Below, one piece after another: positions 1-49,033 of a stretch of DNA of 64,000 bases (its first letter is position 1; each line of letters opens with the position of its first letter). Origin of the DNA: Azonexaceae bacterium (GTDB lineage Bacteria; Pseudomonadota; Gammaproteobacteria; Burkholderiales; Rhodocyclaceae); the NCBI GenBank assembly GCA_013335535.1, contig JAAXVL010000005.1, positions 62,001 to 126,000 of the forward strand, read 5' to 3'. A model generated the notes under the pieces. The model was not told the origin of the DNA and did not search any database. It was given only the letters and a program-made list of their open reading frames with translations. The translations under genes were made by a program, and so were the position numbers.

Positions 1-550
1 CCCAGGCGCCATCCGAGCCGAGTTTGGCCCAACTGCCGCCGCCAAGGGCCAGGATGACCGCGTCAGCAGCGACCGCGATCTCGCCGGCGGGTGTGGCAAA
101 ACGCAAGCTGCCATCCGGCGCCCAGCCGAGCCAGCGGTGACGCACATGAAACCCGACACCCTGCCCGCGCAGGCGATGCAGCCAGGCGCGCAGCAGCGGT
201 GCGGCTTTCATGTCGGTGGGAAAAACCCGGCCCGAGGTGCCGACGAAGGTGTCGATACCGAGACCATGAATCCATTCGCGCAGTTGCGTCGGGCCGAAGG
301 CGTCGAGCAGCGGCGCGATGTGCGTCGCGCGTTCGCCGTAACGCCCGATGAAATCGGCCAGCGGCTCGGAATGGGTGATGTTCATGCCACCCTTGCCGGC
401 CATCAGAAATTTGCGTCCGACCGAGGGCATGGATTCAAAAATTTGAATGTTTTTCCGGTTGACCGTGGAAACTGTGGCATTCGCGGCGGCGAGCATTTCG
501 GCCGCCATGAGTCCGGCCGGGCCGCCGCCGATGATGGCGACGCGCTGCAT
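1..550 (-). CDS. NAD(P)/FAD-dependent flavoprotein (TIGR03862/HI0933-like), 3' end cut by window
   Basis: The gene starts at ATG 550 and runs off the window edge, so about 183 residues are visible. The protein opens with a Rossmann dinucleotide-binding loop (GGGPAG, residues 8-13). It continues through MPSVGRKF and the AGKGGMN block typical of HI0933/BaiN-type flavoproteins, which bind FAD. Substrate is unknown. Residues about 28-37 (STVNRKNIQI) are encoded by a copy of the dispersed 40-bp repeat. It is placed where relatives, as I remember them, pass directly from the helix after the glycine loop to the second beta strand (IFESMPS). This looks like an in-frame insertion of roughly nine residues. 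The start overlaps the stop of the upstream transglutaminase gene by one base, so it is probably the last gene of that operon. Confidence 0.85.
   Translation of the reverse strand, partial: MQRVAIIGGGPAGLMAAEMLAAANATVSTVNRKNIQIFESMPSVGRKFLMAGKGGMNITHSEPLADFIGRYGERATHIAPLLDAFGPTQLREWIHGLGIDTFVGTSGRVFPTDMKAAPLLRAWLHRLRGQGVGFHVRHRWLGWAPDGSLRFATPAGEIAVAADAVILALGGGSWAKLGSDGAW
431..470 (+). repeat. dispersed 40-bp repeat, copy 1 (inside a CDS)
   Basis: Carries the exact 20-base core TTTTCCGGTTGACCGTGGAA at 451-470, preceded by the A/T-rich GATTC..AAATTTG-like half. It lies within the flavoprotein reading frame and is read antisense, giving STVNRKN. Confidence 0.85.
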
Positions 551-1563
551 CATTTGTCGTCCGGGTCGGTTTTTGCTGGCTTGGATGCGTCCGCCGCTTT
601 CGGCAGCCTGGACGGCGGCGAAGCATCCGCTTTGGCCACGAGCAGCTCCTCGGGAATATCTTCTTCGTCGAGCGGGATCACCGTCACCGCGACATCCGGC
701 TCGGTGCCGCCACCGCCGAGAATAATGCCGCGCAGCGGCGAAATGTCCGAGAAATCGCGGCCGAAAGCCAGGGTGATGTGCTCAGTGTTGGGCAGCAGAT
801 TGTTGGTCGGATCGAAATCCACCCAGTCATTTTCGCTGCCCGGCGCATAGACCGACACCCAGGCATGCGAAGCGTCAGCGCCGATCAGGCGTGGTTTGCC
901 GGGGGGCGGCCGGGTCAGCAGGTAGCCGCTGACGTAGCGCGCCGCCAGGCCGAGGGCGCGCAGGCAGGCGATCATGAGGTGGGCGAAGTCCTGACAGACA
1001 CCGCGCTTCTTTTCGAGCACTTCGAGAACCGGCGTCGATACCGTGGTCGCCTCCGGATCGAAGGTGAATTCGCGGAAAATCTTGGCCATCAGGGCCTGTG
1101 TCCCGACCAGCACGGGTGTCTCGGGCGGGAAACAATCGGCGGCGTAATCAGCCAGCTCGTGCTTGACACGCACGTGTGGGCTTTCGAACAGGAAACGCGT
1201 CGCATCGAGGTCGGACGGGATCGGATCGGTCGAATCGTAAGCCAGCCGGTCGCGGACCTCCTCCCAGGGCAGCGATGCCTCGATGTCCTTGGGCAGGTGC
1301 GGCATGACGGCGACGGTCATGGCCGAACGGATGAACAGTTCGTCATGCGGCGTATGGAAGGCCATCCACGTCACCGGATTGCCGAAGGCATCGCGTCCGT
1401 CGCGGCGCCAGGTCGGTACCGGCGTGATGTCGATGCGTTGCTCTTCGACCTGCTGCCAGTCGAGAACGCGCGGCGACAGATGCAATTGCTGTTGCGACAG
1501 CGACACGTTGCTGCCGTAGTCGTAACGGGTTTCGTGCAGGACGCGGTAGCGAACAGGTTCCAT
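550..1563 (-). CDS. Transglutaminase-like cysteine protease family protein
   Basis: 337 residues. An N-terminal bacterial transglutaminase beta domain (HETRYDYGSNVSLSQQQL) is followed by the core with a papain-like triad: Cys in RGVCQDF, His in ADASHAWV and Asp in DFDPTNN. There is no signal peptide, so the protein is probably cytoplasmic. The C-terminus is a charged Lys/Asp/Pro tail. It lies 2 bp downstream of the ATP-grasp/alpha-E gene and overlaps the next gene by one base, so the three are co-transcribed. Families of this type accompany ATP-grasp/alpha-E proteins and are predicted to cleave or form peptide or isopeptide bonds. The actual substrate is not known. Confidence 0.9.
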   Translation of the reverse strand: MEPVRYRVLHETRYDYGSNVSLSQQQLHLSPRVLDWQQVEEQRIDITPVPTWRRDGRDAFGNPVTWMAFHTPHDELFIRSAMTVAVMPHLPKDIEASLPWEEVRDRLAYDSTDPIPSDLDATRFLFESPHVRVKHELADYAADCFPPETPVLVGTQALMAKIFREFTFDPEATTVSTPVLEVLEKKRGVCQDFAHLMIACLRALGLAARYVSGYLLTRPPPGKPRLIGADASHAWVSVYAPGSENDWVDFDPTNNLLPNTEHITLAFGRDFSDISPLRGIILGGGGTEPDVAVTVIPLDEEDIPEELLVAKADASPPSRLPKAADASKPAKTDPDDK

Positions 1564-1565
1564 GG

Positions 1566-4085
1566 TCAGACCGCCATCGTCTGCCGGCTGACATCGCCGA
1601 CGTGCGTGAAATAGCGCATGCCAAGCGCCTCGGAAAGCTTGTTGGCGGCGCTGTCGAGCGATTGCAGGATGTCGGCGAGCTCTTCGCAGGCCGAATAATC
1701 GCGCGCGCTGTCGAACTGGATGTTTTCCAGGCGGCGCAGGTCGAAAGCTTGCAGAGGCGCCAGTGCCGCGGCCAGACCGGCACCGAAATCGTCGCCAAGC
1801 TCACGGCCCATGCGCTCGAGGTAGTTGCCGAGTACGTTGCCCTGGAAGACCACGCCGTGCGGGTTGCTCTCGTCGAAAACGAGCAGGTCGACGACCGGCA
1901 GCAGTTCCGGCTGGCGCGAGTAGCGCGAGCGGTAGGTAATGATCGAGTCGGACAGTTCGAGCAGCCATTCGAGCGAGCCCTGGCTGCGCGCCGCCGGCAT
2001 GCGCAGGAAATGGGCGACCATCATCGACAGGAAGGACAGCCGTTCGAGCCGCCGGCCGATGAACAGGAAGCGCCAGCCGTCGTCGCGCGTCATGTTGTCC
2101 ATGGCGAAACCGGTCAGCGAAGACGAGACGCCGAGCACGCGGTCGAGGAAGGCGATGGCTTCGGTCAGCGTCGGGTGCGTCTTGAGTGCGGCCTGCTGAT
2201 CGCGCTGCAGGCGGTTGAGCGAATGCCAGTGATCGAGCGACAAGCGCTCGCGAACGTGCGTTGCCGACCACATCAGGGCGCGGATGTTGCGGGCCAGACT
2301 GCCCGGCTGCTCGGGATCGTAAATGGCCTCAAGCAGCTCGTGCTCGCCGCCTTCCTTGACCTCGGTGTCCTCGCCCGGCTCGGGCAGGACGCCCAGGCGC
2401 CGGGCCAGTTCCATCGCGGCAATGACCACCGGCGTCTTCTGCCCGCCGCCGACGACAACACGCGACAGGGCGACGCGCAACATGCGGGCGCTATCGTCGA
2501 AGCGTTCGGAATAGCGGCCAAGCCAGAACAGGTTCTCGACAACGCGCGAAGTCAGGTTCGAACCCGCCCGCACCAGATCGCGCACGCCAACCGAAGGCTT
2601 GAGCAGCGAAAACTGGCTGACCGGGCCGTTGGTCAGCACCCAGCAATCCTTCGAAGCCCCGCCCCGCTGCATCGAAATGATGCGCGTGCCAGCCCCGGTC
2701 GTCACCCGGGCCAGGCCGCCCGGCATCACCGAATAACCGTCCGGCGTCGTCACGGCATAGGCACGCAGACCGACCGGACGGGCCAGCAGGCGACGTTCGT
2801 GCGCCCGGCTCCAGGTCGGCGCCTGCGACAGGTTGACCATTTCCTGAGCGACGTAGGCATGCGGCCGCGCTTCGATGCGGCGCAGCATTTCGGCCCGTGC
2901 CTCGCCCTTCAATTCGTTGCCGAAAACCGGATCCATGTTCTGGGTCGGGTAGGCCGGCTTGATGACCAGATCGTCGAAGTTTTCCTTGACGTAATCGAGG
3001 GCCGGTTTCTCGCCGCACCACCACGTCGCCACCGACGGCATGGCCAGCTTTTCGCCGAGCAGGTGGCGGCAGATGGCGGGCAGGAAGCCCATCAGCGCGC
3101 CGGAAGCAAGCAGGCCGCTACCCAGCGCATTGGCGATGACGACACGCCCGGCGCGCGCCACATTGAGCAGGCCGGGAATACCGAGTGCCGATTCACCCCG
3201 CAGTTCGAGCGGGTCGCAATAGGCGTCGTCCTGACGACGTAGGATGACGTGCACGCGCTTGAGGCCGCGCAGGGTCTTCAGATAGACCGTTTCGCCACGC
3301 ACCGTGAGGTCCTGCCCCTCGACGAGGGGGAAGCCGAGGTAGCGGGCCAGGTAGGCGTGTTCGAAATAGGTTTCGTTGTACGGCCCGGGCGTGAGCAGGA
3401 CCATGTGCGGCTGCTCGTCGCCCTCGACCGGCGCCAGCGCCGTCAGGCCGTCAAGCTGGTCGCGGAAGAAGTCGGCGACGTGCTGGACGTGCAGGTCGCG
3501 GAACATTTCGGGGAAGACGCGCGACACGATGAGCCGGTTTTCCAGCGCATAGCCCGCCCCCGACGGGGCTTGCGTGCGGTCGGCGATGACCCACCAGCGG
3601 CCGTTCGGCGAACGGGCCAGATCGACGGCGTAATTGTGCAGCCAGACCCCGCCCGGCGGCTTGACACCACGGCAGGGCCACAGGTAGCCGTGCTGGCCAT
3701 AGACCAGGGCCGGCGGCAGCAAACCTTCGGCGAGCAGCGTCTGCTCGCCGTAGAGATCGTCCAGAATGGCGTTGAGCAGGGTAGCGCGCTGGGCGACGGC
3801 GGCCGACAGCTCGGCCCACTCGTCGGGCGGAATGATGAGCGGCAACGGATCGAGCGCCCACGGCCGGTCAGCACCGTTGGGGTCGGCGTAGACGTTGTAG
3901 GTGACCCCGTTTTCCTGGATGCGCTGCTCGGAAAAATCGAGACGGCGGCGCATTTCCTCCGGCGTCACCGCATCGAGATGCTCGAGAAACTGGTTCCAGT
4001 GCGGACGGACGGACCCGTCCGCGGCCAGCATTTCATCGTAGCGGCGGGGACTGTGGGGATAGATTGCGAGGAGGGTGCGAGCCAT
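1566..4085 (-). CDS. Fused circularly permuted ATP-grasp and alpha-E protein
   Basis: 839 residues. The first roughly 480 residues are a circularly permuted type 2 ATP-grasp domain (formerly DUF404/DUF407), including GPYNETYFEHAYLARYLG and LPAICRHLLGE. The remainder is the all-helical alpha-E domain (formerly DUF403), beginning around SNLTSRVVENLFWLGRYSER. The two domains are separate genes in the second module of this window (41968-44331). ATP-grasp enzymes ligate carboxylates to amines, and this family is predicted to make a peptide or peptide tag together with the neighbouring transglutaminases. A hairpin terminator or attenuator lies immediately upstream. The start is ATG at 4085. Confidence 0.9.
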   Translation of the reverse strand: MARTLLAIYPHSPRRYDEMLAADGSVRPHWNQFLEHLDAVTPEEMRRRLDFSEQRIQENGVTYNVYADPNGADRPWALDPLPLIIPPDEWAELSAAVAQRATLLNAILDDLYGEQTLLAEGLLPPALVYGQHGYLWPCRGVKPPGGVWLHNYAVDLARSPNGRWWVIADRTQAPSGAGYALENRLIVSRVFPEMFRDLHVQHVADFFRDQLDGLTALAPVEGDEQPHMVLLTPGPYNETYFEHAYLARYLGFPLVEGQDLTVRGETVYLKTLRGLKRVHVILRRQDDAYCDPLELRGESALGIPGLLNVARAGRVVIANALGSGLLASGALMGFLPAICRHLLGEKLAMPSVATWWCGEKPALDYVKENFDDLVIKPAYPTQNMDPVFGNELKGEARAEMLRRIEARPHAYVAQEMVNLSQAPTWSRAHERRLLARPVGLRAYAVTTPDGYSVMPGGLARVTTGAGTRIISMQRGGASKDCWVLTNGPVSQFSLLKPSVGVRDLVRAGSNLTSRVVENLFWLGRYSERFDDSARMLRVALSRVVVGGGQKTPVVIAAMELARRLGVLPEPGEDTEVKEGGEHELLEAIYDPEQPGSLARNIRALMWSATHVRERLSLDHWHSLNRLQRDQQAALKTHPTLTEAIAFLDRVLGVSSSLTGFAMDNMTRDDGWRFLFIGRRLERLSFLSMMVAHFLRMPAARSQGSLEWLLELSDSIITYRSRYSRQPELLPVVDLLVFDESNPHGVVFQGNVLGNYLERMGRELGDDFGAGLAAALAPLQAFDLRRLENIQFDSARDYSACEELADILQSLDSAANKLSEALGMRYFTHVGDVSRQTMAV

Positions 4086-4102
4086 TTATCTTTATTCTAG
4101 AA

Positions 4103-4126
4103 AAACAGGCCGTCACCGGCCTGTTT
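4103..4126 (-). terminator. Hairpin between DUF2126-transglutaminase and ATP-grasp genes
   Basis: A 10-bp stem (AAACAGGCCG / CGGCCTGTTT) with a 4-base loop. On the minus strand it is followed by a short T run (TTTTTCTAG). It lies 17 bp upstream of the ATP-grasp start, so it could act as an intrinsic terminator or attenuator within the operon. Confidence 0.6.
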
Positions 4127-4150
4127 CCACGGTCAACCCGAAATTTGAAG
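4125..4150 (-). repeat. dispersed repeat, copy 2 (partial)
   Basis: Reads TTCCACGGTCAACCCGAAATTTGAAG on the plus strand. The core is intact up to CAACC, and the A/T-rich half is shortened. It abuts the terminator hairpin. Confidence 0.6.
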
Positions 4151-4226
4151 CAAAAACAAAATGTCGCGGAGCGGCGCTGGCTTTACATGCCAACGCCGGG
4201 GGCCTTAGGTTGACGCTTCTTTTTGA

Positions 4227-7607: not shown

Positions 7608-7629
7608 GAGCTTGCTCCAGACAGAATGA

Positions 7630-7666
7630 TTGCAAGCTTAAAAGCAAGACGCGAACCAGCTTGCAA
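7630..7666. promoter_or_regulatory. Inverted repeat in leader of DUF2126 gene
   Basis: TTGCAAGCT (7630-7638) and AGCTTGCAA (7658-7666) form a perfect 9-bp inverted repeat 19 bases apart, ending about 22 bp upstream of the GTG start. It may be an operator or a leader hairpin. The regulator is unknown. Confidence 0.4.
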
Positions 7667-7776
7667 GTCGTTGTTTTAAAACAAACCAAATCTTCAGACG
7701 CACCTAATCAAAGCCTCACGGCAGAATGTGCGCACCAAAAACGTGCAGTACGGCCCAGCGCTCTCCGAAAGAATAT

Positions 7777-8242: not shown

Positions 8243-8280
8243 GATTTGAAATTGGGGTATTTTTCCGGTTGACCGTGGAA
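8243..8280 (+). repeat. dispersed repeat, copy 3
   Basis: GATTTGAAATTGGGGTA followed by the exact 20-base core. It is intergenic, between the VOC gene and the 3' end of the phytochrome gene. Confidence 0.85.
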
Positions 8281-17041: not shown

Positions 17042-17080
17042 TTCCACGGTCAACCGGAAAAAATGGCTCATTTTGAAATC
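17042..17080 (-). repeat. dispersed repeat, copy 4
   Basis: Exact core in inverted orientation (TTCCACGGTCAACCGGAAAA) followed by AATGGCTCATTTTGAAATC. It is intergenic, between the HD-GYP start and the Crp/Fnr 3' end. Confidence 0.85.
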
Positions 17081-18169: not shown

Positions 18170-18195
18170 TTGCCATGGTCAACCGGATTTTCTGC
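18170..18195 (-). repeat. dispersed repeat, copy 5 (degenerate)
   Basis: TTGCCATGGTCAACCGGATTTT keeps most of the core in inverted orientation with several changes. Probably a decayed copy. Confidence 0.4.
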
Positions 18196-18236
18196 GTAAA
18201 ACGCAAAACTGACCCAATCGGAAATCGCCATCGGCC

Positions 18237-20227: not shown

Positions 20228-20681
20228 TTTGATTCTCCTGAATGGGTAGTGTGTTGGTCACTCGGTGCTGACATTCATTTGCAGCGCCTTGAGGGAAATA
20301 ACGCGGCCGGATACAGGACGGATGTCATGAGAAACGTAATGCTCTGTATCCGGGCGTGACCAAGCTGTATCCGAATATTCGCCCCCGGCCGGACAGGCAA
20401 CTTGCCGCTTCCGGCCGGAACGTCAAAGCCATCTCGCCCCTCTCATTGGCCGCCTTGCGCCTTCTGGCGAGCGGCGACCCTGAATATGACGATTTCAAAT
20501 TTGGCCTATTTTTCCGGTTGACCGTGGCAACTCGTTTTCGGCGGCGATACAGAATTGGCTTGCCGGCTGCCATCCTGTCGTTCGCTGCAACACGCTTGCA
20601 GCAGCGGCATGGACACCATTTATCCGGTCTGCGTTATCCTTTGTCGAACGCTGCAATTTCACGAATGAAGAGACGGGGGAC
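20228..20681. other. Intergenic region between divergent genes
   Basis: A 454-bp gap. It contains CCGGATACAG (20307-20316), CTGTATCCGG (20344-20353) and a third CTGTATCCG (20365-20373), followed by dispersed repeat copy 6. It should also hold the promoters of the Ala/Lys-rich gene and of the kinase gene. No coding sequence is convincing. Confidence 0.5.
20491..20530 (+). repeat. dispersed repeat, copy 6
   Basis: GATTTCAAATTTGGCCTA followed by the core with a one-base insertion at the end (GTGGCAA). It shows the full 40-bp consensus well and is intergenic, upstream of the kinase gene. Confidence 0.85.
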
Positions 20682-27269: not shown

Positions 27270-27285
27270 GCCGCCGAAACGGCTT
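27268..27285 (+). terminator. Hairpin after hybrid kinase gene
   Basis: A 6-bp stem AAGCCG / CGGCTT overlapping the stop codon of the kinase gene. It runs straight into dispersed repeat copy 7. A weak terminator at best. Confidence 0.4.
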
Positions 27286-27323
27286 TCCACGGTCAACCGG
27301 AAAAAACAGCCAAATTTCAAATC
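27285..27323 (-). repeat. dispersed repeat, copy 7
   Basis: Exact core inverted, then AACAGCCAAATTTCAAATC, a full-length copy. It lies 15 bp past the kinase stop and about 100 bp from copy 8, which is in the opposite orientation. Confidence 0.88.
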
Positions 27324-27421: not shown

Positions 27422-27877
27422 ATGTTCCAGCATTTGAAATTTCCGCTTTTTTTCCTGTTGACCGTGGCAATGCTCTCCGGTTGCGGCGAAGTCGAAGACA
27501 CGCGGCCCGGACAGCCGGTGAAGCACCGGCAGGTGGCGTTCAAGGAGATCGTCAAGACTTTCGAGCCGATGGGCGTGATGCTGCGCAAGGGAGAATACAA
27601 CGCCGACAAGTTCCTGCCCCTGGCCGAAGCGCTGCTCGCCAGGCGGGATGGCCCGTGGGCATATTTCGGTGCGGACACCAACTACCCGCCGACCAAGTCG
27701 ACGCCCGATGTCTGGAAGCAGCCCGAGCAATTCGAGAAGGACAAGAATGCCTTCATCGCTGCTACCGACGCCCTGTTGGTCGCCGCCAAAAACAAGGACC
27801 AGGCGCAGGTCGAAAAGGCCTACGACGCTGTGCACGACGCCTGCAAGACCTGCCACAAGCAGTTCAAGGAACGCTGA
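27422..27877 (+). CDS. Cytochrome c' family lipoprotein
   Basis: 151 residues from ATG 27422. A lipoprotein signal (LTVAMLSGC, lipobox ending at Cys21) precedes a helical domain with the heme site CKTCH at residues 141-145 near the C-terminus, the class II cytochrome c arrangement. It should be a periplasm-facing, membrane-anchored heme protein that may bind NO or transfer electrons. Residues 4-16 of the signal peptide (HLKFPLFFLLTVA) are encoded by dispersed repeat copy 8, with CGG changed to CTG so that the usual Arg becomes Leu. A longer upstream frame from 27344 lacks signal character. Confidence 0.88.
   Translation: MFQHLKFPLFFLLTVAMLSGCGEVEDTRPGQPVKHRQVAFKEIVKTFEPMGVMLRKGEYNADKFLPLAEALLARRDGPWAYFGADTNYPPTKSTPDVWKQPEQFEKDKNAFIAATDALLVAAKNKDQAQVEKAYDAVHDACKTCHKQFKER
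27431..27470 (+). repeat. dispersed repeat, copy 8 (encodes a signal peptide)
   Basis: CATTTGAAATTTCCGCTTT followed by TTTTCCTGTTGACCGTGGCAA, a full-length copy with one core change plus one inserted base. It lies entirely in the cytochrome c' signal peptide and is read LKFPLFFLLTVA. Confidence 0.82.
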
Positions 27878-35864: not shown

Positions 35865-35888
35865 GGCTTGGTGCCTGACAACTGGCAT

Positions 35889-36420
35889 GGGGTTCCGCCT
35901 TGCTGGCGGGCGTACTTTCTTTTGCTTCGCCAAAAGAAAGTAGCCAAAGAAAAGGCGACCCCTGGGGCGGTGCCGGCTGCGCCGGTTCCCTGTGCTACTC
36001 GGAAGGCCGGGCGGCTGCGGAACTCGGGGCTGCGCCCCTCAAACAGTCCTCGCCGAAAGCCCCCGGCCTTCCTGCGTTGCTCGGCACCTCTCAAGGGGCC
36101 CGAAAAACCATCCGGGGTTAAACGGGGAATTTCATTTTTGGGCTTTTTTTCCGGTTCACCGTGGGAATGCAAATTCAATTCGCGCTGCTTGAGCACAGAC
36201 GCCTTTCGGGTCCCCGTGGAAGGCGCTGAGCAACGCAGGGGCTGGCGGAAAAGGGGCGAGGACTGTCTGAGGGCGAAGCCCGAGTTGCGCAGCCCCCGCC
36301 AGTCCCGAGTAGCGCAAGGGACCGGGCAACGCCCGGCGCCGCCCTCGGGGTCGCCTTTTCTTTGGCTACTTTCTTTTGGCGAAGCAAAAGAAAGTACGCC
36401 CGCCAGCAAGGCGGAACCCC
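35889..36420. repeat. 532-bp inverted-repeat element
   Basis: The outer 74 bp (35889-35962 and 36347-36420) are perfect reverse complements. The next roughly 150 bp on each side are similar but diverged. Each arm also holds its own hairpin (TACTTTCTTTTG / CAAAAGAAAGTA). The centre (36127-36167) is dispersed repeat copy 9. Open frames here on both strands are by-products of the symmetry. It separates the MFS gene from the chalcone-isomerase-like gene. Confidence 0.85.
36127..36167 (+). repeat. dispersed repeat, copy 9 (centre of inverted repeat)
   Basis: GAATTTCATTTTTGGGCT then a mutated core (CCGGTTCACCGTGGGAA). It lies in the non-paired middle of the 532-bp inverted repeat. Confidence 0.7.
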
Positions 36421-36468
36421 AAGCCTGAGAACGGGAAACCGCCAACGGCAAGCAGGAAGCAGCAGCCA

Positions 36469-36969
36469 TCACGAACGCCTCAACAACGCCGCCCGCAAAT
36501 CCGGCGCACTCGTCTTCACATCCAGCCAAATCCCAAAAAACCACCGCGCGAAATCGGCATCGGCCACTTCCCCAAGCAAACGACCATTGAAATGAAACCG
36601 CGCAACCCCGGGCACGTATTCCCCGATGATGAAATCGCCTTCCTTCACATTCGGGAAAATCCGCGTCATCTGCTCGCCCCAACGCTTGAGCGCCGGCTCA
36701 TCCGCCCCCAGCGCGCGCATTTCCTTGACGCTGGCGTCGGCAATCGCCGCCCCGGCAAGGGTGCGTTTGTAGTCGAGGCGCAGCGCCAAAGGTGGCCGTT
36801 GCGGGTCGTCGCCGGCCCATAGCGTGGCTTCGTAGACGAGGAAGCCGAAGCGGCGGAACTGACCGTTACCCCAGCGTTTGAGGCCGGCCGTCGGGTCGGT
36901 GTTGGCGAATGCCGCGAACGGCGCCGCGGCCAGCGCCAGCAAAAGCCGACGACGTCCGCCCGAGGCCAT
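36469..36969 (-). CDS. Chalcone-isomerase-like exported protein
   Basis: 166 residues from ATG 36969. A signal peptide (GGRRRLLLALAAAPFAAFA) precedes a chalcone-isomerase-like domain (RFGFLVYEATLWAGD, FPNVKEGDFIIGEYVPGVARFHFNG, FARWFFGIWLD). Bacterial members of this fold are not true chalcone isomerases. They often bind fatty acids and occur with CFA-like/DUF1365 genes. The longer frame reaching 37185 runs through repeat copy 10 and was rejected. Confidence 0.88.
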   Translation of the reverse strand: MASGGRRRLLLALAAAPFAAFANTDPTAGLKRWGNGQFRRFGFLVYEATLWAGDDPQRPPLALRLDYKRTLAGAAIADASVKEMRALGADEPALKRWGEQMTRIFPNVKEGDFIIGEYVPGVARFHFNGRLLGEVADADFARWFFGIWLDVKTSAPDLRAALLRRS

Positions 36970-37005
36970 TTCGGTTTTGGCCGTTTTTTCCGGTTGACCG
37001 TGGAA
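36968..37005 (+). repeat. dispersed repeat, copy 10
   Basis: ATTTCGGTTTTGGCCGTT followed by the exact 20-base core. It touches the start codon of the chalcone-isomerase-like gene and occupies its upstream leader, so it may affect translation of that gene. Confidence 0.88.
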
Positions 37006-37036: not shown

Positions 37037-38221
37037 TCAACGATGCGTGAGTTCAAACTGGACGACATCGATATTCCCGGCCAGGAAGCCGGCCTCGCAA
37101 TAGCAAAGGTACAGGCGCCAGAGTCGGCGGAAGGGCTCGTCGAAACCGAGCTTCTGGATGTCGGGCCAGTTGGCCTCGAAGGCATGGCGCCATTCGGCCA
37201 GGGTCTTCGCGTAGTCCTGCCCGAAGGCGTATTCGTTGCGGACGATCAGTCCCTGTTTGGCGGCAGCGGCGCGGAAAGCCGAACGCGAGGGGAGCATGCC
37301 GCCCGGGAAAATGTATTGCTGGATGAAATCGGTGCTGCGCCGGTATTCCGGGAAGATGTCGTCGCGGATGGTGATGCTCTGGACGACCGCCCTGCCCTCG
37401 CTCTTGAGCGCCTTGGCCAGCGTCTTGAAGTAGGTCGGCCACCAGCGTTCGCCAACGGCTTCGAACATTTCGATGGAGACGACGTGGTCGAACTGCTCGT
37501 CGAGATCGCGGTAGTCCTGCAGCCGCAGATCAGCGCTCGGTACGCGCTTCTGGGCCCATTCGAGCTGGGCTGGCGAGAGCGTCAGGCCGGTCGTCTTGAG
37601 GCCATCCTGCACCGCCATTTCGGCGAAGCCCCCCCAGCCGCAGCCGATTTCGAGCACATTCTGGCCGGGCACGGCTTTCAGACAATTCAGGATGCGGCGG
37701 TATTTGGCGTGCTGGGCCGTTTCGAGCGCCCCGTCGTCGGCTTCCCGGTAGATCGCCGATGAATAGCTCATGCTCGGGTCGAGCCACAGCTTGTAGAAAT
37801 CGTTGCCGAGGTCGTAGTGCGCCATGATGTTGCGCTTGCTGCCGCTGCGGCTGTTGGCGTTGAGCCAGTGGCGGACACGCGCTGCAAGCAGGCTGCGCCA
37901 CGAACCATAGACGGCCCGCTTGAGCTGTTCGCGATTGGCCGCCAGCAGGCGGAGCAAGCCAGTGACGTCCGGCGAATCCCATTGGCCGTCAAGATAGCTT
38001 TCGGCCAGTCCGATGTCGCCGCGAGCCAGCACCTGGCCGAACATGGCTTCATCGTGAACCTGCATGGTGACGCCATGTTCGCCGTCACCAAAAAGCGCGC
38101 TGGCGCCGCCCGGCAGACGAATTTCGAGCATTCCGCCCTGCAGTTTTTCGAGCAGTTCGAAGACCAGTCGGGTATCGCGAGCCAGCCTTTCGCTGCTGCG
38201 TAGCGTCATCGTATTGTTCAT
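37037..38221 (-). CDS. cfa: Cyclopropane-fatty-acid synthase-like methyltransferase
   Basis: 394 residues. ATG 38221 overlaps the upstream DUF1365 stop by 4 bp. The SAM-binding motif VLEIGCGWGGFAEMAV, the acidic segment SIEMFEAVGERWW and the family end motif YLCYCEAGFLAGNIDVVQFEL are present. Members add a methylene or methyl group to membrane phospholipid acyl chains. Next to an amine oxidase-like protein and DUF1365 this is more likely a methylating branch (for example furan fatty acids) than housekeeping cyclopropanation, but this is inference. Confidence 0.93.
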   Translation of the reverse strand: MNNTMTLRSSERLARDTRLVFELLEKLQGGMLEIRLPGGASALFGDGEHGVTMQVHDEAMFGQVLARGDIGLAESYLDGQWDSPDVTGLLRLLAANREQLKRAVYGSWRSLLAARVRHWLNANSRSGSKRNIMAHYDLGNDFYKLWLDPSMSYSSAIYREADDGALETAQHAKYRRILNCLKAVPGQNVLEIGCGWGGFAEMAVQDGLKTTGLTLSPAQLEWAQKRVPSADLRLQDYRDLDEQFDHVVSIEMFEAVGERWWPTYFKTLAKALKSEGRAVVQSITIRDDIFPEYRRSTDFIQQYIFPGGMLPSRSAFRAAAAKQGLIVRNEYAFGQDYAKTLAEWRHAFEANWPDIQKLGFDEPFRRLWRLYLCYCEAGFLAGNIDVVQFELTHR

Positions 38222-38979
38222 TTGGTGGGTTCTCTGAGGGGGTGGGGAACGTGGGCGCCGCGGAACGGCACCCCTTTGAGCCACAGCTTCATGGCTTGCC
38301 AGTGGATGCGGAACATCACGCCGGCAGTCAGGAAAGGCATTTTCAGGAAGGCAGCAAGGAGGGCCGCGGACGACCAGTCGCGGCCCTTGCCGGAAATGGA
38401 GGTGAGCAACAAGGCACCGTCGGCATCGTCGTAGTCGATGCGGGCCAGCGGTACCGGACGGTCGAGATGGAAACGGAAACGGTAGCCGCCTTCGATCTCG
38501 TTGAACGGCGAAACATGGAATTCCTTTTCCGCACGCAGCTCCTGACCATCGACCAAGGGCGCGCCGTCCGGGTTGTGCAGCAGATAGCTGTGACAACCGC
38601 CGAAGGTATTGTTGACCTCGGCCAGCACGGCGATCAACGCCCCTTCTCGATTACGGCATAACCAGAAGCTAACCGGATTGAAGACGTAGCCGAAGACGCG
38701 CGGAAAGCATTGCAGCGTGATCTCTCCGTCGTCAGGCAGGCCGCGCCGACGCAATTGCGCCTGTATCCACGGCAACAAGGGGCTGCCGTCGCGGGGCCCG
38801 TGGTCTTTCTGGCGGAAGCTGAGCAGGTTTGCACGGTCAACCGAGAAAATTGGGCAATTTGCCGATGTCAGATCGCGTACCGGCAGTTGGATGTAGAAGA
38901 CCGGATAGACGAAGGCATTGACCGCCGGACGCAGGCGCCGGTGCATGACGTGGCCGAGGAAGAGGTGCGGGCCGTTCAT
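38218..38979 (-). CDS. DUF1365 family protein
   Basis: 253 residues from ATG 38979. It contains the family signatures LGHVMHRRLRP, AFVYPVFYIQL, DHGPRDGSPLLPW, CFPRVFGYVFNPVSFW and LKGVPFRGAHVPHP. The role is unproven, but members are co-regulated with CFA-like and amine-oxidase genes. Its IFSVDRANLLSF stretch corresponds to a conserved family motif, yet the DNA there (38829-38866) closely matches the dispersed repeat. A longer frame reaching 39243 overlaps the upstream gene and was not used. Confidence 0.92.
   Translation of the reverse strand: MNGPHLFLGHVMHRRLRPAVNAFVYPVFYIQLPVRDLTSANCPIFSVDRANLLSFRQKDHGPRDGSPLLPWIQAQLRRRGLPDDGEITLQCFPRVFGYVFNPVSFWLCRNREGALIAVLAEVNNTFGGCHSYLLHNPDGAPLVDGQELRAEKEFHVSPFNEIEGGYRFRFHLDRPVPLARIDYDDADGALLLTSISGKGRDWSSAALLAAFLKMPFLTAGVMFRIHWQAMKLWLKGVPFRGAHVPHPLREPTK
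38829..38866 (-). repeat. repeat-like sequence inside DUF1365 gene
   Basis: On the gene strand CAAATTGCCCAATTTTCTCGGTTGACCGTGCAA resembles the dispersed repeat over its whole length. The encoded FSVDR motif is natural for the family, so it may be a coincidence or a gene-derived ancestor. Confidence 0.35.
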
Positions 38980-40878: not shown

Positions 40879-40896
40879 GTTCGGCTCCTTATTTGT

Positions 40897-40986
40897 TTTG
40901 TCCTAGACAAACAGGACGTTTGTTCGTAAGATAGCCATCAAAGATTCACTTGTCAACGGTTTGTCTAACATTTGTTTAGGACAAAT
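40897..40986. promoter_or_regulatory. Divergent promoter with CarH/LitR-type operator candidates
   Basis: TTTGTC-CTA-GACAAA (40897-40911) and ATTTGT-TTAGG-ACAAAT (40970-40986) are palindromes, with TTGTC half-sites at 40950 and 40960. TTTGTCC (40897-40903) and GGACAAA (40979-40985) match half-sites upstream of the paralogous regulator gene at 13795. The second palindrome touches the MerR start codon, fitting autoregulation. Confidence 0.6.
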
Positions 40987-41892: not shown

Positions 41893-41910
41893 GAGCAGCC
41901 CCCAAAAGCA

Positions 41911-41940
41911 CTTCGGCGCCGGAATGACCCGGCGCCGAAG
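41911..41940. terminator. Strong hairpin between convergent genes
   Basis: A 12-bp perfect stem CTTCGGCGCCGG / CCGGCGCCGAAG with a 6-base loop, between the MerR-B12 stop and the alpha-E stop. It probably ends both transcripts. T runs are short. Confidence 0.7.
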
Positions 41941-41967
41941 CGAGCGACTATCGACCGATACGGGCCG

Positions 41968-42915
41968 CTACGCCGCTTCTTCCATCGGCATCAGGAAGTC
42001 CTTGCTGATACCGTTGCCAAGCAGATAGATGCGATCCATGAAGTCGCTGAGCCATTCGTGCAGGCCATGTTCGAGGATGTCCTCGATACGCCCGTAACGC
42101 AAATGGGCGTGCAGCATGCCAGCCTGACGCTGGGTTTCGCCGGAATTGCTGTTGGCGACCAGATCGAGATTCTTGACGACGCTGTTCAGGCAGAACTGCA
42201 GCGAACGTGGCATGTCCTCGTTGAAGATCAGCAGTTCGGCAACCCGCTCCGGCGTAATGACGTCGCGGTAAACCTTGCGATAGACCTCGAAGGCCGAGAC
42301 GGAACGGAGCAGCGCCCCCCATTCGTAGAAATCCGTCGCCCCCTCGTCACCCTGCGGACGCAGCACGTGATATTTGACGTCGAGGATGCGTGCCGTGTTG
42401 TCGGCACGTTCGAGCAGGGTGCCGAGGCGGATGAAGTGGTAAGCCTCGTCCTGCAGCAAGGTGCCGAGCGTCGTGCCGCGCGATAGCGATGAGCGCATCT
42501 TCACCCACTCGAAGTAATCGCCGATGCCAGCATTGTAAAGCTGGTCGAAGGTCTTCTCGCGCGCTTCGAGCCAGGTCGAATTGAGCGTTTCCCACATTTC
42601 CGTGGTCAGCGTGCCGCGCACGGCATGGGCGTTTTCACGCGCCATGCGCAGACAGCTGTGAATCGACGAAAAATTGTCCGGGTCGCTGACCATGAATTTC
42701 AGGACATTTTCCCCGTTGACCGTGGAATACTTCTTCGCATAAGCCTCTTCGAGGCTGTTCAGGGCAATGATGGCGGCCCAGCTCTGATTGACCGCATCGA
42801 GCGATTGCGGCACGAGCGACATTTGCCAGGTGACGTCCAGCAGGCGGGCAAGGTTCTCGGCACGCTCGATGTAGCGCGACATCCAGAACAGGTGATCGGC
42901 AGTTCGACTCAGCAT
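41968..42915 (-). CDS. Alpha-E domain protein
   Basis: 315 residues, all helical. The family start MLSRTADHLFWMSRYIERAENLARLLD and the SIHSCLRMARENA and LGTLLERADNTARILD blocks are present. Alpha-E proteins are predicted partners of the permuted ATP-grasp enzyme encoded 3 bp upstream. In the other module of this window (1566-4085) the two are fused. Residues encoded around 42691-42727 (STVNGENVLKFM) coincide with DNA very like the dispersed repeat. Confidence 0.9.
   Translation of the reverse strand: MLSRTADHLFWMSRYIERAENLARLLDVTWQMSLVPQSLDAVNQSWAAIIALNSLEEAYAKKYSTVNGENVLKFMVSDPDNFSSIHSCLRMARENAHAVRGTLTTEMWETLNSTWLEAREKTFDQLYNAGIGDYFEWVKMRSSLSRGTTLGTLLQDEAYHFIRLGTLLERADNTARILDVKYHVLRPQGDEGATDFYEWGALLRSVSAFEVYRKVYRDVITPERVAELLIFNEDMPRSLQFCLNSVVKNLDLVANSNSGETQRQAGMLHAHLRYGRIEDILEHGLHEWLSDFMDRIYLLGNGISKDFLMPMEEAA
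42691..42727 (+). repeat. repeat-like sequence inside alpha-E gene
   Basis: CATGAATTTCAGGACA then TTTTCCCCGTTGACCGTGGAA, which matches the 21-base extended core at 19 positions. It is read antisense as STVNGEN, the same frame as in the flavoprotein gene, but here without evidence of added length. Confidence 0.5.
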
Positions 42916-42918
42916 GAC

Positions 42919-44331: not shown

Positions 44332-44480
44332 ATTTCCACTCGTCGCTGAGGAAGCTCTCGAAGACGTTTCAGCAGGTTCCATGCCACCCGGAAACAACCC
44401 TTAAATCATGCGCCGAATACGACTTTTTAACTATTGACGCACCGCAAAGGTGCGGCCGATTTTCAAGATGGTGCAAATAA

Positions 44481-44510
44481 AAAACCCGCCGGATTTCTCC
44501 GGCGGGTTTT
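44481..44510. terminator. Intrinsic terminator after thiolase gene
   Basis: A 13-bp stem AAAACCCGCCGGA / TCCGGCGGGTTTT with a TTTC loop. U-tracts occur on either strand. It lies 20 bp past the thiolase stop. Confidence 0.9.
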
Positions 44511-44530
44511 TAGCTGAATCAGCGCAGTGA

Positions 44531-45712
44531 TCAGGCGCGCTCGAAGATCACGGCAATACCCTGGCCGCCACCGATACACATCGTGACGAGAGCATATTTG
44601 CCGCCAATGCGTTCCAGTTCGTACAGCGCCTTGGTAGCGATGAAAGCACCGGAACAGCCGACCGGATGGCCGAGAGCGATGGCGCCGCCGTTCGGGTTGG
44701 TCTTGGCCGGGTCGAGACCGAGCACCTTGGAAACGGTCAGCGCCTGGGCGGCGAACGCTTCGTTGGATTCGATGACGTCCATCTGGTCCAGGGTCAGGCC
44801 AGCCTTCTTGAGGGCCAGCTTGGTTGCCGGGATCGGGCCTTCGCCCATGATGTCGTTCGGCACACCGGCAACGGCATAACCAGCGATACGGGCACGGGCC
44901 TTTTGGCCGTTCTTGGCGGCAACATCGGCAGCAGCCAGCACGAAGAAGGCGGCGCCGTCGTTGATGCCGGAAGCGTTACCGGCGGTGACGGTACCATCCT
45001 TCTTGAAAGCCGGCTTCATCTTGGCCAGCGATTCCATGGTCGTGCCACGCTTCAGGTGCTCGTCGGTATCGAACACAACGTCGCCCTTGCGGGTCTGCTT
45101 GACGATCGGCACGATCTGCGACTTGAAGTAACCGGCGTCGATGGCAGCAGCGGCGCGACGCTGGGATTCAACAGCCAGCGCATCCTGGTCTTCACGGGTG
45201 AAGCCATGCTTGGTTGCAAGGTTTTCAGCGGTGATACCCATGTGGCCGACGCCGAACGGGTCGGTCAGCACAGCAACCATGGAGTCGATGGCCTTGGTGT
45301 CACCCATGCGGGCGCCGGAACGCAGCGCCGGCATCAGGTAAGCGGCCTTGGACATGACTTCGACGCCACCGCCGATACCGTAATCGGCATCGTTCAGCAT
45401 GATGTTCTGGGCGGTGGTGACGATACCTTGCAGACCGGAGGCGCACAGGCGGCTCACTTGCATGGCGACGGAATCCATCGACAGACCAGCCTGGATGGAA
45501 GCAACGCGGGAAACGTAGGCGTAACGGGAATCGGTCGGCATGGTGGTGCCGACGGTGACGTAATTGATGGCTTGCGGATCAACACCGGAGCGGGCTATCG
45601 CTTCCTTCATGACGATGCCAGCAAGTTCGGTGCTTTCAAAATCAGCCAGGGAACCACCAAAGGCGCCGATAGGGGAACGAACTGCGCTTAGAACGACGAC
45701 ATCTCTGCTCAT
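44531..45712 (-). CDS. Acetyl-CoA C-acyltransferase (thiolase)
   Basis: 393 residues. Nucleophile Cys90 is in SRLCASGLQG. NEAFAAQAL, the catalytic His of GGAIALGHPVGCSGA and the second Cys in CIGGGQGIA are all present. The length is standard for the family. It condenses or cleaves acyl-CoA, in the biosynthetic direction making acetoacetyl-CoA for polyhydroxybutyrate. BktB-like or PhaA-like use cannot be separated by eye. No phaB or phaC gene lies next to it. Confidence 0.95.
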   Translation of the reverse strand: MSRDVVVLSAVRSPIGAFGGSLADFESTELAGIVMKEAIARSGVDPQAINYVTVGTTMPTDSRYAYVSRVASIQAGLSMDSVAMQVSRLCASGLQGIVTTAQNIMLNDADYGIGGGVEVMSKAAYLMPALRSGARMGDTKAIDSMVAVLTDPFGVGHMGITAENLATKHGFTREDQDALAVESQRRAAAAIDAGYFKSQIVPIVKQTRKGDVVFDTDEHLKRGTTMESLAKMKPAFKKDGTVTAGNASGINDGAAFFVLAAADVAAKNGQKARARIAGYAVAGVPNDIMGEGPIPATKLALKKAGLTLDQMDVIESNEAFAAQALTVSKVLGLDPAKTNPNGGAIALGHPVGCSGAFIATKALYELERIGGKYALVTMCIGGGQGIAVIFERA

Positions 45713-45734
45713 GTAAATCTCCTGTAAGAATTAT

Positions 45735-46658
45735 TCAGCCCACCAAGGTGGCAAGCCCTAACAAAAACAGCAACAACATCCACAACACAGTAGCTCGCCA
45801 GACAAGGCCGACGGCACTTTGCATGAAATCCACATCGGCCGGGTCACCCAACCCCAGTTCGGCCCGGTCGGACACCTCGACGCCATCAACCACCGGTCGC
45901 CCCAACTGGACACCGAGTGCGCCAGCGCCGGCAGCGAGGACAATGCCAAGGTCGCGGTCCGGCCATTGCGCCGGCTGGGTACGCCAGCAATAGACCGCAT
46001 CCTCGAAGTCACCGACGATGGCGAAGGCCGCAGCCGTTGCCCGGGAGGGTAGCCAGTCGATGATACCGAAAACCAAACGCGAGAATGCAGAAAAATCAGT
46101 TTGCTGGGCGATGTTTTTGGCGTTCCAGCGGTCACGAACAAGGAGCGACAACCGGTAGAGCAGCGCACCGCAAGGACCCGGCAATAGAACGAAGCAAAGC
46201 ACGACAGCAAAGACGTGGCGATGCGAGGCGGCCAGCGCGCCTTCGATGGATAGCCGGGCGATATCTTCCGAGCCGAGGCCGTAGGTCGAAATGCCTTGCC
46301 ACTCGGCGAGCAGATGACGTGCTCGCTCCAGGTCACCGAGGCGCAGGGCCAGCTGAATTTCGGTGTAGTGGTGGCTGAACTGGCGGAATCCCATGGTCAG
46401 GTAGAGCACGCCGACATTGAGCGCCCAGCCGAAAAGCGGGTTCAGGGAATAAAGCAGACCGTAAGCGACGGCAAGCAGTGCCACCGGCAACAGGACGGCC
46501 AGGCACCAGGCGAGGACGCCATGCCGGTAGGCACCAGCATTGAAGCGGGATTCGATGAAATCAGCCCATGCGCCGAGAGGCTCGGCGACAATGCGGCGAT
46601 AATCAAGAGGTTGCAGTTGCTCGAGGAGGAAAACTGCGATGAGCGAGAGAAGACTCAT
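45735..46658 (-). CDS. CobD/CbiB-family membrane protein
   Basis: 307 residues with hydrophobic segments near 1-15, 48-70, 80-92, 150-170 and at the C-terminus (ATVLWMLLLFLLGLATLV). It contains the ARHLLAEWQG and RLSIEGALAASHRHVFAVVLCFVLLPGPCGALLYRL patterns of the CobD/CbiB/AmpE superfamily. True CobD attaches aminopropanol to cobyric acid. In betaproteobacteria this stand-alone version next to a Nudix gene has unknown function. No cobalamin riboswitch is evident upstream. Confidence 0.8.
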   Translation of the reverse strand: MSLLSLIAVFLLEQLQPLDYRRIVAEPLGAWADFIESRFNAGAYRHGVLAWCLAVLLPVALLAVAYGLLYSLNPLFGWALNVGVLYLTMGFRQFSHHYTEIQLALRLGDLERARHLLAEWQGISTYGLGSEDIARLSIEGALAASHRHVFAVVLCFVLLPGPCGALLYRLSLLVRDRWNAKNIAQQTDFSAFSRLVFGIIDWLPSRATAAAFAIVGDFEDAVYCWRTQPAQWPDRDLGIVLAAGAGALGVQLGRPVVDGVEVSDRAELGLGDPADVDFMQSAVGLVWRATVLWMLLLFLLGLATLVG

Positions 46659-46722
46659 GGGGTGCCGATGATTGCCGTATTCGGCTTATTTTCATGTCGT
46701 AAAGTGTCACGATACCACAAGC

Positions 46723-47319
46723 TCAAGTACCGTGGAGAAGGCCAAGACGCTCGCTCAGCGAACGAATCATGCCGGCGGTGGCGCCCCAGATGAAATAGTC
46801 GCCATAGGGCATGGCAAAGTAATTCCGCAGTGCGCCGCGATAGTGAAGGGAATGCTGTTGATGATTGGCCGGATCGAGCAGAAAGGCGAGTGGGACTTCG
46901 AAGACCTCGGCCACCTCAAAGGGATCCGGTCGCAAATCGAAAGGAGGCTGGACCAGGGCGACAACGGGTGTCACGCGAAAGCCTGTTCCGGTCCGGTATT
47001 CGGGCAGAAAACCGAGGATTTCGATACGTTCGCGCGGCAAGCCGATTTCTTCCTCGGTTTCGCGCAAGGCGGTGTGGGATGGAGAAAGATCCTCGACCTC
47101 GACCCGCCCGCCAGGAAAACTGATCTGCCCGGCATGGTCGCGCAGATGCGCCGTGCGCTGCGTGAGGAGTACTGTCTGTCCGCCATCGCGCAGGACGATC
47201 GGAAAAAGCACTGCGGCCGGGGTCAGGGGCTGGTCATCGACACCATCTTCCTGGACGAAATGCCCACTCAGCGGCTCGGGCAACAGGCTGGCGCGCAGGC
47301 GCTCCAGATCAAACGTCAT
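46723..47319 (-). CDS. Nudix hydrolase, CoA pyrophosphatase-like
   Basis: 198 residues. The Nudix box is complete (GRVEVED then LRETEEEIGL), preceded by QISFPGG, the arrangement of CoA diphosphatases (NudL/YeaB type). It would hydrolyse CoA or related pyrophosphates. Its start overlaps the stop of the small upstream gene by 4 bp. Confidence 0.9.
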   Translation of the reverse strand: MTFDLERLRASLLPEPLSGHFVQEDGVDDQPLTPAAVLFPIVLRDGGQTVLLTQRTAHLRDHAGQISFPGGRVEVEDLSPSHTALRETEEEIGLPRERIEILGFLPEYRTGTGFRVTPVVALVQPPFDLRPDPFEVAEVFEVPLAFLLDPANHQQHSLHYRGALRNYFAMPYGDYFIWGATAGMIRSLSERLGLLHGT

Positions 47320-47573
47320 GCGGCCTTGGAGTCTTCCTCGATTTCAGCGTTGACCGCAGCCAGCGCATCCTGCAGCGTTTCTTCGGAGAGGTCGTTGATG
47401 GTTGTCGCGACCAGATCGGCTGACTCGATGGCCCCAACCGGCAAGCGTTTGCTGTCCATGCTGGCAATCATCACGGCCGATGCACCCGCCACGCGCAACA
47501 GCGCCTGCCGTTCGCCCATCAGCATTTCCAGTTCGTCACGCAGCAAGGCAATTTCCTGATCTTTTTGGGGCAT
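47316..47573 (-). CDS. Small conserved-looking hypothetical protein
   Basis: 85 residues. The N-terminal third is a likely coiled coil (KDQEIALLRDELEMLMGERQALL). A hydrophobic stretch follows (VAGASAVMIASMD) and the C-terminus is acidic. I do not recognise the family. It overlaps the Nudix gene by 4 bp and is 9 bp from the retropepsin-like gene, so the three form one unit. Confidence 0.65.
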   Translation of the reverse strand: MPQKDQEIALLRDELEMLMGERQALLRVAGASAVMIASMDSKRLPVGAIESADLVATTINDLSEETLQDALAAVNAEIEEDSKAA

Positions 47574-47582
47574 TTCTCTCTC

Positions 47583-48221
47583 CTAGAATCTTTTTTTCAG
47601 TGTCATGGTACTGCCATCGCGCTGCATTTCCATGCGGTTCAGAAAACTCATGCCAAGCAAGGCGATCGGCATTTCAGTCGGCAGCACCACCGCTTCCACG
47701 TTGTGCATGGTCACACCGCCAATTCTGACCGTATCGAGCGGTATGCGTGTGACAACCACAGTTCCGTTCGCCGTGCTCGTCAAGCCACGCTGCCCCTGCC
47801 GGAGGTCCAGGCCGATGCGCCGGGCGTCGTTGGGGCCGAGCGCAATTGAGGTGGCGCCCGTATCGACGACAAAGCGCACTGATGTGCCGTTGACCGTGCC
47901 GGTCGTATAAAAATGTCCCTGGACATCGGCTGTCATGACGATCTTATCCGAACCATCACCACCAGAAACGCCGATGGCATGTTGGCCGACGCGCAAGGGG
48001 CGTTTTTTGCCCCCGATTTCGACGATCACCTGGTCATCCTGAATCGACAGCAATTTGACGCCATCCACCGTCTTGCCAAGCGGCACGCTCTGCGGTTCAC
48101 CACCGTTGATCATGAGCATCGCCTTGCTGCCCATGATCCCGGCCAGGCCGACATCCTGCGCCATTCCCGCCGCTGGGAGCAGCAACGCCAACAGGGCAAG
48201 CAGCGTAAAATGACGCTTCAC
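47583..48221 (-). CDS. Retropepsin-like aspartic protease (clan AA)
   Basis: 212 residues from GTG 48221, which begins a signal peptide (VKRHFTLLALLALLLPAAGMAQ). Longer starts at 48245 or 48278 add a non-signal leader and overlap the divergent gene. The single catalytic site is VDTGATS near residue 120, followed by ALLGMSFLNRMEM. It should dimerise to form an active retropepsin-type protease in the periplasm. Targets are unknown. Confidence 0.85.
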   Translation of the reverse strand: MKRHFTLLALLALLLPAAGMAQDVGLAGIMGSKAMLMINGGEPQSVPLGKTVDGVKLLSIQDDQVIVEIGGKKRPLRVGQHAIGVSGGDGSDKIVMTADVQGHFYTTGTVNGTSVRFVVDTGATSIALGPNDARRIGLDLRQGQRGLTSTANGTVVVTRIPLDTVRIGGVTMHNVEAVVLPTEMPIALLGMSFLNRMEMQRDGSTMTLKKRF

Positions 48222-48243
48222 TTTTCCGAATCCGAACGCTGCC

Positions 48244-48957
48244 ATGCAACCTGTCGCCATCTTTCGCCACTCCCCCACTGAAGGTCCGGGCTATTTTGCC
48301 ATATTCCTCGAGCAGCAAGGCATTCCGTGGCGCCTGATTGCCATTGATGAAGGCGAGGCGGTACCGGCCAGCACCGATGCTTTCTCCGGACTTTGTTTCA
48401 TGGGCGGACCGATGAGCGTCAACGATCCGCTGCCGTGGATAGAACCTGTTTGTGCGCTGATTCGCGACGCGGTGGCGAAAGATGTGCCGGTCATCGGCCA
48501 TTGCCTCGGCGGGCAACTGATGAGCAGGGCGCTCGGCGGGCAAGTCACACGCAACCCGGTCAAGGAAATAGGCTGGAGCGCAGCCCACGGCGAGGACAAT
48601 GGCATTGCCCGCCACTGGCTCGGTGATTTCGGCGGCAATAGCGGCACTGTTTTCCAATGGCACGGCGAGACTTTCAGCATCCCGAGCGGAGCGACCCGCC
48701 TGCTGGCCAATGGCTACTGCGCCAACCAAATGTTCGCGATGGGCCCTCACCTTGGCATGCAATGCCACGTCGAGATGACACCCGAAATGATCGCCACGTG
48801 GTGCGAACAGTGGGCCGACGAGGCGATTGCGGTCGCCGATCAGCCCAGCGCACAAACGCCGGAAACCATGCTGGCCGAAATTTCCACCAAACTACCGGTC
48901 ATGCGACAACTCTCGGAACAACTCTATTCGGTGTGGATCAAGGGTCTGGCGCGCTGA
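48244..48957 (+). CDS. Class I glutamine amidotransferase
   Basis: 237 residues. The nucleophile elbow is GHCLGGQL, and the His/Glu pair is in CHVEMTPE. It has the free-standing GMP-synthase-like GATase1 fold with PVAIFRHSPTEGPGYFA at the start. It hydrolyses glutamine to supply ammonia or cleaves gamma-glutamyl bonds. The partner is unknown. It is divergent from the retropepsin-like gene. Confidence 0.92.
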   Translation: MQPVAIFRHSPTEGPGYFAIFLEQQGIPWRLIAIDEGEAVPASTDAFSGLCFMGGPMSVNDPLPWIEPVCALIRDAVAKDVPVIGHCLGGQLMSRALGGQVTRNPVKEIGWSAAHGEDNGIARHWLGDFGGNSGTVFQWHGETFSIPSGATRLLANGYCANQMFAMGPHLGMQCHVEMTPEMIATWCEQWADEAIAVADQPSAQTPETMLAEISTKLPVMRQLSEQLYSVWIKGLAR

Positions 48958-48969
48958 ATCGCCAATAAA

Positions 48970-48999
48970 AAAACCGGACTGCTCGCACAGTCCGGTTTT
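48970..48999 (+). terminator. Intrinsic terminator after amidotransferase gene
   Basis: An 11-bp stem AAAACCGGACT / AGTCCGGTTTT with an 8-base loop. Its 3' side merges into dispersed repeat copy 13. Confidence 0.88.
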
Positions 49000-49033
49000 C
49001 AATTTTGGCCGTTTTTTCCGGTTGACCGTGGAA
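48996..49033 (+). repeat. dispersed repeat, copy 13
   Basis: TTTTCAATTTTGGCCGTT followed by the exact 20-base core. It sits between the terminator and the yajQ stop codon (49040). Confidence 0.88.

Follow-up and report, generated by a model that had tools for sequence, protein, structure and literature searches.

Two families of bacteria, the Neisseriaceae and the Pasteurellaceae, are named in passages of a 2025 paper as the only ones known for self-DNA uptake tags (PMC12616744). In the Pasteurellaceae, as portions of PMC1626085 have it, the uptake signal sequence (USS) combines a core of 9 bp with an AT-rich segment 2 and, in the Hin type, a segment 3 whose centre lies 12 positions on, and is argued to arise by substitution, not by insertion; subclade variants are described there and in part of PMC7811141. 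The Neisseriaceae counterpart (DUS) exists as species ‘dialects’ with a common centre, according to a portion of PMC3630211. The repeat that we describe here lies in a 64,000-nucleotide stretch of DNA from an Azonexaceae bacterium (‘the window’; source genome G000), and recurs across the genus Azonexus/Dechloromonas. That genus falls in the same class of bacteria as the Neisseriaceae. The initial annotation took the repeat to be undescribed, and we likewise found no description of it in the literature searched, nor, at the level of titles and listings in the open-licence literature, any relevant report of a repeat, an uptake sequence or natural transformation in Dechloromonas or Rhodocyclales; further searches brought up work on Neisseria and Pasteurellaceae, general papers on pili or competence, and unrelated ones. 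Judging from sequence comparisons, we suggest that the repeat is probably a third such tag, a DNA uptake signal sequence of USS/DUS type that evolved independently and was spread by biased transformation.

Abundance and form of the repeat

The core of the repeat, TTTTCCGGTTGACCGTGGAA (given also as CCGGTTGACCGTGGMA), has 12 matches at up to three mismatches within the window, six of them exact, against a mean of 0.01 and a largest value of 1 in 100 dinucleotide-preserving shuffles. In the source genome as a whole (4.25 Mb in 72 contigs) we counted 312 forward and 310 reverse matches at the same tolerance, with 0 and 0 for a reversed-pattern control, i.e. a strong over-representation on both strands; 81 of the 622 are exact. 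The dense, dispersed repeat in both orientations that had been reported from the window is therefore borne out, as are its six exact cores at 451, 8261, 17042 (inverted), 27285 (inverted), 36986 and 49014, and its copies number far more than a few genome-wide. The tally of 13 copies holds for 12 as core matches, the thirteenth (18170) being weaker, with five core mismatches and a PWM score of 29.4, where the top scores of the window controls were 17.5 (shuffled) and 12.1 (reversed). The copies in the window, and one pilin gene considered further below, are as follows (strand in brackets):

433..470 (+): motif copy with an exact core at 451; intergenic by our own gene calls
4125..4162 (-): motif copy, 2 core mismatches; intergenic, adjoining a terminator-like hairpin
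8243..8280 (+): motif copy with an exact core at 8261; intergenic; present in G011 too
17042..17079 (-): motif copy with an exact core; intergenic
18171..18208 (-): degenerate copy, 5 core mismatches (18170 above); intergenic
20492..20529 (+): motif copy, 1 core mismatch; intergenic
27285..27322 (-): motif copy with an exact core; intergenic
27432..27469 (+): motif copy in a cytochrome c' gene (27422-27877), close to the gene start; G034 lacks the motif and aligns gap-free
36129..36166 (+): motif copy, 2 mismatches, within a long dispersed inverted repeat (35884-36425)
36968..37005 (+): motif copy with an exact core at 36986; intergenic
38829..38866 (-): motif copy, 3 mismatches, in a DUF1365 gene (38218-38979)
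42690..42727 (+): motif copy, 2 mismatches, in an Alpha-E gene (41968-42915); G034 and G011 align gap-free
48996..49033 (+): motif copy with an exact core at 49014; intergenic, immediately after a terminator-like hairpin
61962..62447 (-): type IV minor pilin of the ComP_DUS family; as a receptor candidate, possible but unsupported

The motif is bipartite and some 38-44 bp long, with the core CCGGTTGACCGTGGMA and two T-rich blocks; on the complementary strand, the core is followed by an A-tract and then, some five bases on, by another AT-rich block. Across 89 copies sampled from 464 kb, information goes up at -18 and down after +19 relative to the core start; other species show some conservation for a few bases beyond this right end. 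Within these limits, position -3 is random (0.07 bits) and positions -14 to -10 alternate among a few letters, whilst the left halves of 20 exact-core copies share a mean of 62% of bases, as against 26-27% in the flanks. A random inner position, together with these shares, gives the profile expected of protein recognition rather than of a copied element, and the left half is, on its pattern of conservation, a degenerate motif, not a copied sequence. What had been described as a 40-bp repeat therefore stands as a dispersed motif, but one of about 38 bp (-18 to +19) with a left half that is not a copied sequence; the imperfect palindrome noticed in the core is weak in the source species. Single-stranded folds of six window copies were no better than those of shuffles (z -0.61 to 0.86), with no stable palindromic hairpin among them, and Rfam gave no match in the window; a hairpin RNA or terminator was rejected on these two grounds. 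As a separate observation, several copies in G065 (L122-L126) are near-perfect palindromes, for example TTTTTACGGTCGACCGTAAAAA, perhaps because two inverted motifs overlap there, or perhaps as a form resembling a terminator.

Origin, placement and distribution of copies

Occupied and empty orthologous sites were compared at 130 sites (drawn from 80 named loci and from parts of the window and of G034), which fell into 38 orthologous groups, 16 of them including relatives without the motif. The raw script count placed 13 of these 16, ties included, as mostly without a large indel; three of these groups read another group's place on the second strand, 13 bases off, which leaves 13 independent places, and since raw pair counts are dominated by the DUF1365 site, it is the count of places that is the fair measure. 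Nine of the 13 lack a large gap, pointing to an origin by point substitution in pre-existing sequence; one is a tie, and three (36986, 36147 and one in L162) mostly show large gaps. The clean-gap empty site that would mark an insertion element, with 32-46 bp missing, was seen at 36986 only (one place of 13), in 3 of 29 sequences. That copy (36968..37005) is shared with G002 and G011, is present as a variant in G028, and is missing in G034, G013, G020 and G015, where the intergenic gap is shorter. At the gene-internal window sites 27450, 38829 and 42708, relatives without the motif align gap-free, including all 35 of the sequences that lack the DUF1365-gene copy (present in 41). The result parallels the case made in the literature against insertion for the USS, though it is less clean between genes than within them; taken over all places, insertion is not favoured.

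With genes called by our own simple gene caller, 56 of the 89 sampled copies are intergenic, in roughly 10% of the sequence, 32 are inside genes (14 on the same strand as the gene, 18 on the opposite) and one is on an edge. The intergenic copies divide into 35 tandem, 11 convergent and 9 divergent, with one unassigned, against 27.9, 6.1 and 9.8 kb of such sequence available, and several adjoin terminator-like hairpins. The earlier placement of copies at gene ends, leaders and terminators was accordingly half right: intergenic sequence is enriched, but 32 of 89 copies are genic and there is no clear convergent or divergent preference. Exact copies are almost all intergenic (19 of 20), whilst 11 of 16 three-mismatch copies are inside genes, a difference which suggests coding constraint on the substitution process.

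Two side observations concern individual sites. Four of the 32 gene-internal copies (27432-27469, and copies on C32a and C1a) have the same frame and strand, sit within the first 4-8% of the gene, and would, by eye only, encode a hydrophobic, signal-peptide-like stretch. Separately, a dispersed element some 540 bp long occupies 35884-36425. Its long inverted arms (93 nt) are 96% complementary, and it encloses a motif copy; the element recurs many times, on either strand, in G000 and in further species of the genus.

In three of four stretches the copies are spaced more evenly than chance would give (CV 0.66, 0.59 and 0.64; P <0.001, 0.002 and 0.004), the evenness of the fourth not being significant (CV 0.78, P 0.10). 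Insufficient evenness has been used, in a passage of PMC1939737, as an argument against a compaction role of DUS/USS; even spacing here is ambiguous, as it also fits an architectural role. On two complete chromosomes, sites were present in 20 of 20 samples, and these samples gave no sign of clustering at ori or ter. Sites modestly favour the G-rich strand (51 of 77, p 0.006; 28 of 47, p 0.24), a bias that may reflect the motif's own composition.

A looser pattern, TTTTNNNGNYGACCG, with which a palindromic copy may count on both strands, was run over 76 Azonexus/Dechloromonas genomes: 22 have at least 100 matches, 22 are intermediate (some marginally so) and 32 are at control level, by cut-offs that we set ourselves. 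An order-wide sample of 250 genomes included 247 from outside the genus, 5 of these in the same family, and none of the 247 showed a comparable density (highest total 24, with a control of 26); a single one, G277 (22, control 8), would just pass the intermediate cut-off. The G000 core itself had at most one match in each of 24 order relatives. Inside the genus, G002 and G011 are motif-rich and G034, 81% identical over 3.45 kb, is at control level, and a one-gene tree (68 of 82 sequences; stretches below 12 kb dropped) gives a patchy distribution with weak support.

The motif also differs between lineages around a shared centre. Using an iterated PWM, for which training and scored sequence are the same, so that counts lean high, we obtained ...CCGGTTGACCGTGGaA for G000 (G011 being similar, with a varied tail), ...GctGACCGTAGCAtT for G028, ...GTTGACCGtaGca for G098, ...GTtGACCGtgGcAatc for G073 and ...GTcGACCGCaGCa for G033; it is in these six genomes that the ‘dialects’ are clearest. 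G065 has a looser form, the consensus is also loose for G013 and for G020, perhaps through drift, and G034 yielded one site in 80 kb. In G073, its own PWM found 54 sites in 100 kb, where the general PWM found 39; the latter gave 47 sites in a different 200 kb. Over the 80 named loci, 1.41 Mb in all, this general PWM found 151 places, against 5 for the reversed control. Isolates that bear the motif include Azonexus fungiphilus DSM 23841, with 5 places in a 21-kb locus, Azonexus hydrophilus ZS02, with 4, and Dechloromonas sp. Dech2017, with 6. A search with one 81-base copy and its flanks found no plasmid match, and viral sequences with the 18-base core came to no more than 3 stretches.

Uptake machinery and mobile DNA in comEC

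The genus carries machinery for DNA uptake, though comEC is interrupted in G000: ComEC was matched in 75 of the 76 genomes (above the cut-off in 68), ComEA was above the cut-off in 11 of 12, the exception being the motif-rich complete genome G098, and type IV pilins were found in 6 of 6. The ComP_DUS family is present in 70 of 76 genomes irrespective of the motif, and the best solved-structure sequence matches are PilA-type and other pilins. No pilin was restricted to motif-rich genomes, with GspH and N_methyl proteins (few genomes) and ComP_DUS (76 genomes) occurring in rich and poor alike. The window's pilin belongs to a GC-poor type IV minor pilin operon (55355-62447) that also encodes PilY1, PilW and a GspH/FimT-like protein, and contains no motif copy.

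In G000, comEC is split by an insert of about 34 kb (33.7 kb; C33:109617-143311; L130, L131), which opens with a large serine recombinase gene adjoining the N-terminal part of comEC and encodes a type ISP restriction enzyme, CHAT and DUF4917 proteins, a family-B DNA polymerase and a VapE-like protein, some of its genes being restriction- or defence-like. This insert contains no motif copy, as against 9 in the surrounding 42 kb (Poisson 0.007), and a 43-kb comEC insert in G086 has one weak match against 7 in its 37-kb surroundings; recently acquired DNA, as represented by these two elements, is thus poor in the motif. Besides G086, large insertions split comEC in G090, G064, G070, G004, G099, G017 and G035, at several different positions and in several species of the genus. 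Mobile elements seem to strike this gene again and again, a pattern that points to transformation being of importance in Azonexus/Dechloromonas. With 5 partial genes set aside, 71 genomes could be scored, and comEC is broken (split or frameshifted), among the matches listed, in 4 of 22 rich, 3 of 21 intermediate and 8 of 28 motif-free genomes; no significant link emerged between a broken comEC and motif loss (Fisher p 0.25, rich plus intermediate against motif-free).

Readings of the repeat and known systems

We prefer the uptake-signal reading on account of the abundance, layout, dialects, substitution origin and coding constraint of the motif, its near-restriction to the genus and its scarcity in two mobile elements. 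Against it stand the low share of exact copies (81 of 622), the three places of 13 with mostly large gaps, the strand excess, the ambiguity of even spacing, a copy density well below that of Haemophilus, the split comEC of G000, the want of a significant link between broken comEC and motif loss, the missing ComEA match in G098, and the fact that no receptor was found. The strongest rival is that the repeat is bound inside the cell by a protein that organises the chromosome or processes DNA (a nucleoid, segregation or repair factor), its sites being kept by selection and turned over by point mutation. We regard this as unlikely: a binding-motif profile, spacing that is even in three of the four stretches, sites right round two chromosomes and a modest strand excess all suit it, and scarcity in young mobile DNA fits it equally; there are also points against it. 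Such a protein's usual sites are short compared with this motif, the 20 samples gave no ori or ter clustering, and patchiness among close relatives would be odd for a housekeeping site; rich G002 and G011 beside G034 at control level favour instead a dispensable signal maintained by drive.

A mobile or once-mobile short element (REP, MITE or other non-autonomous repeat), spread by insertion and then decayed, is in our estimation improbable. It would account for the sharp right edge at +19, the two orientations, the mostly intergenic location, and those places, three of 13, with mostly large gaps, one of them with the 32-46 bp gaps in 3 of 29 sequences and the shorter spacer in relatives at 36986; the nine places without a large gap, the random inner position, the unequal conservation, the want of a hairpin and exact-core left halves just 62% alike all speak against it, and an insertion element was rejected on the count of places. 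The likeness to REP or Rickettsia palindromic elements raised in the initial annotation, and with it a REP/RAYT origin, did not survive, as a search confined to Y1 transposases gave 0 matches in G000 and the six folds were no better than shuffles; G011, G002 and G004, the next richest relatives covered, gave no Y1 match either, and G010 (59 copies) has two Y1 transposases. Least probable of all, to our minds very much so, is a transcription signal, whether terminator, leader element or global-regulator operator. The intergenic share and the copies adjoining terminator-like hairpins are in its favour, yet 32 of 89 copies are genic, both orientations occur, tandem, convergent and divergent gaps are used nearly in line with the kb available, and there is neither a hairpin nor an Rfam match in the window. 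The genic copies and lack of a clear gap-type preference led us to reject an ordinary regulator site, and on this point the initial annotation is borne out.

Returning to the uptake-signal reading, we infer from sequence that the motif would be read during uptake, that some protein reads it, and that transformation drives it. We speculate that a surface receptor of the type IV pilus uptake machinery would prefer DNA with the core CCGGTTGACCG, a species-specific tail and the adjoining T-rich blocks, such that better-matching fragments would be imported more often and then recombine into the chromosome. This drive might accumulate point-mutated, near-consensus copies genome-wide, most freely between genes, with recently arrived mobile elements being without copies, and receptor and motif could drift together to give species dialects. 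On balance, we lean slightly towards a fuller version of this proposal, in which the long bipartite motif, unlike DUS and resembling USS in layout only, would mark a third origin of self-recognising uptake, the dialects would act as mating barriers, and mobile elements would ‘strike back’ via comEC. If true, a third case, unrelated to the other two and from an environmental genus, would mean that uptake specificity evolves repeatedly; rich species beside motif-free relatives would offer a comparative test of a mating signal against a by-product of a biased receptor; and the repeat would supply a sequence tag for genetic work in Azonexus/Dechloromonas.

Amongst known systems, REP elements too occur as many short, mostly intergenic copies in both orientations, and in this the repeat is like them; unlike REP/RAYT, it has no Y1 transposase in G000 and no stable hairpin, and arises mostly by substitution. 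The DUS of Neisseriaceae, a 10-12-mer that lacks flanking motifs, occurs mostly as exact copies, unlike the repeat here (81 of 622 exact), and the ComP-family pilin of Azonexus/Dechloromonas does not follow the motif; the likeness to DUS lies in dialects around a common centre, as set out in part of PMC3630211, and in a ComP_DUS-family pilin in nearly all genomes. Set against the Pasteurellaceae USS, the core is unrelated, the order of bacteria is different, the motif is longer and more degenerate, and copy density in G000 is well below that of Haemophilus. With the USS, as the relevant portions of PMC1626085 and PMC7811141 present it, the repeat nonetheless shares its build of a core with two AT-rich segments, its abundance (hundreds of copies, in both orientations), a substitution origin and subclade variants.
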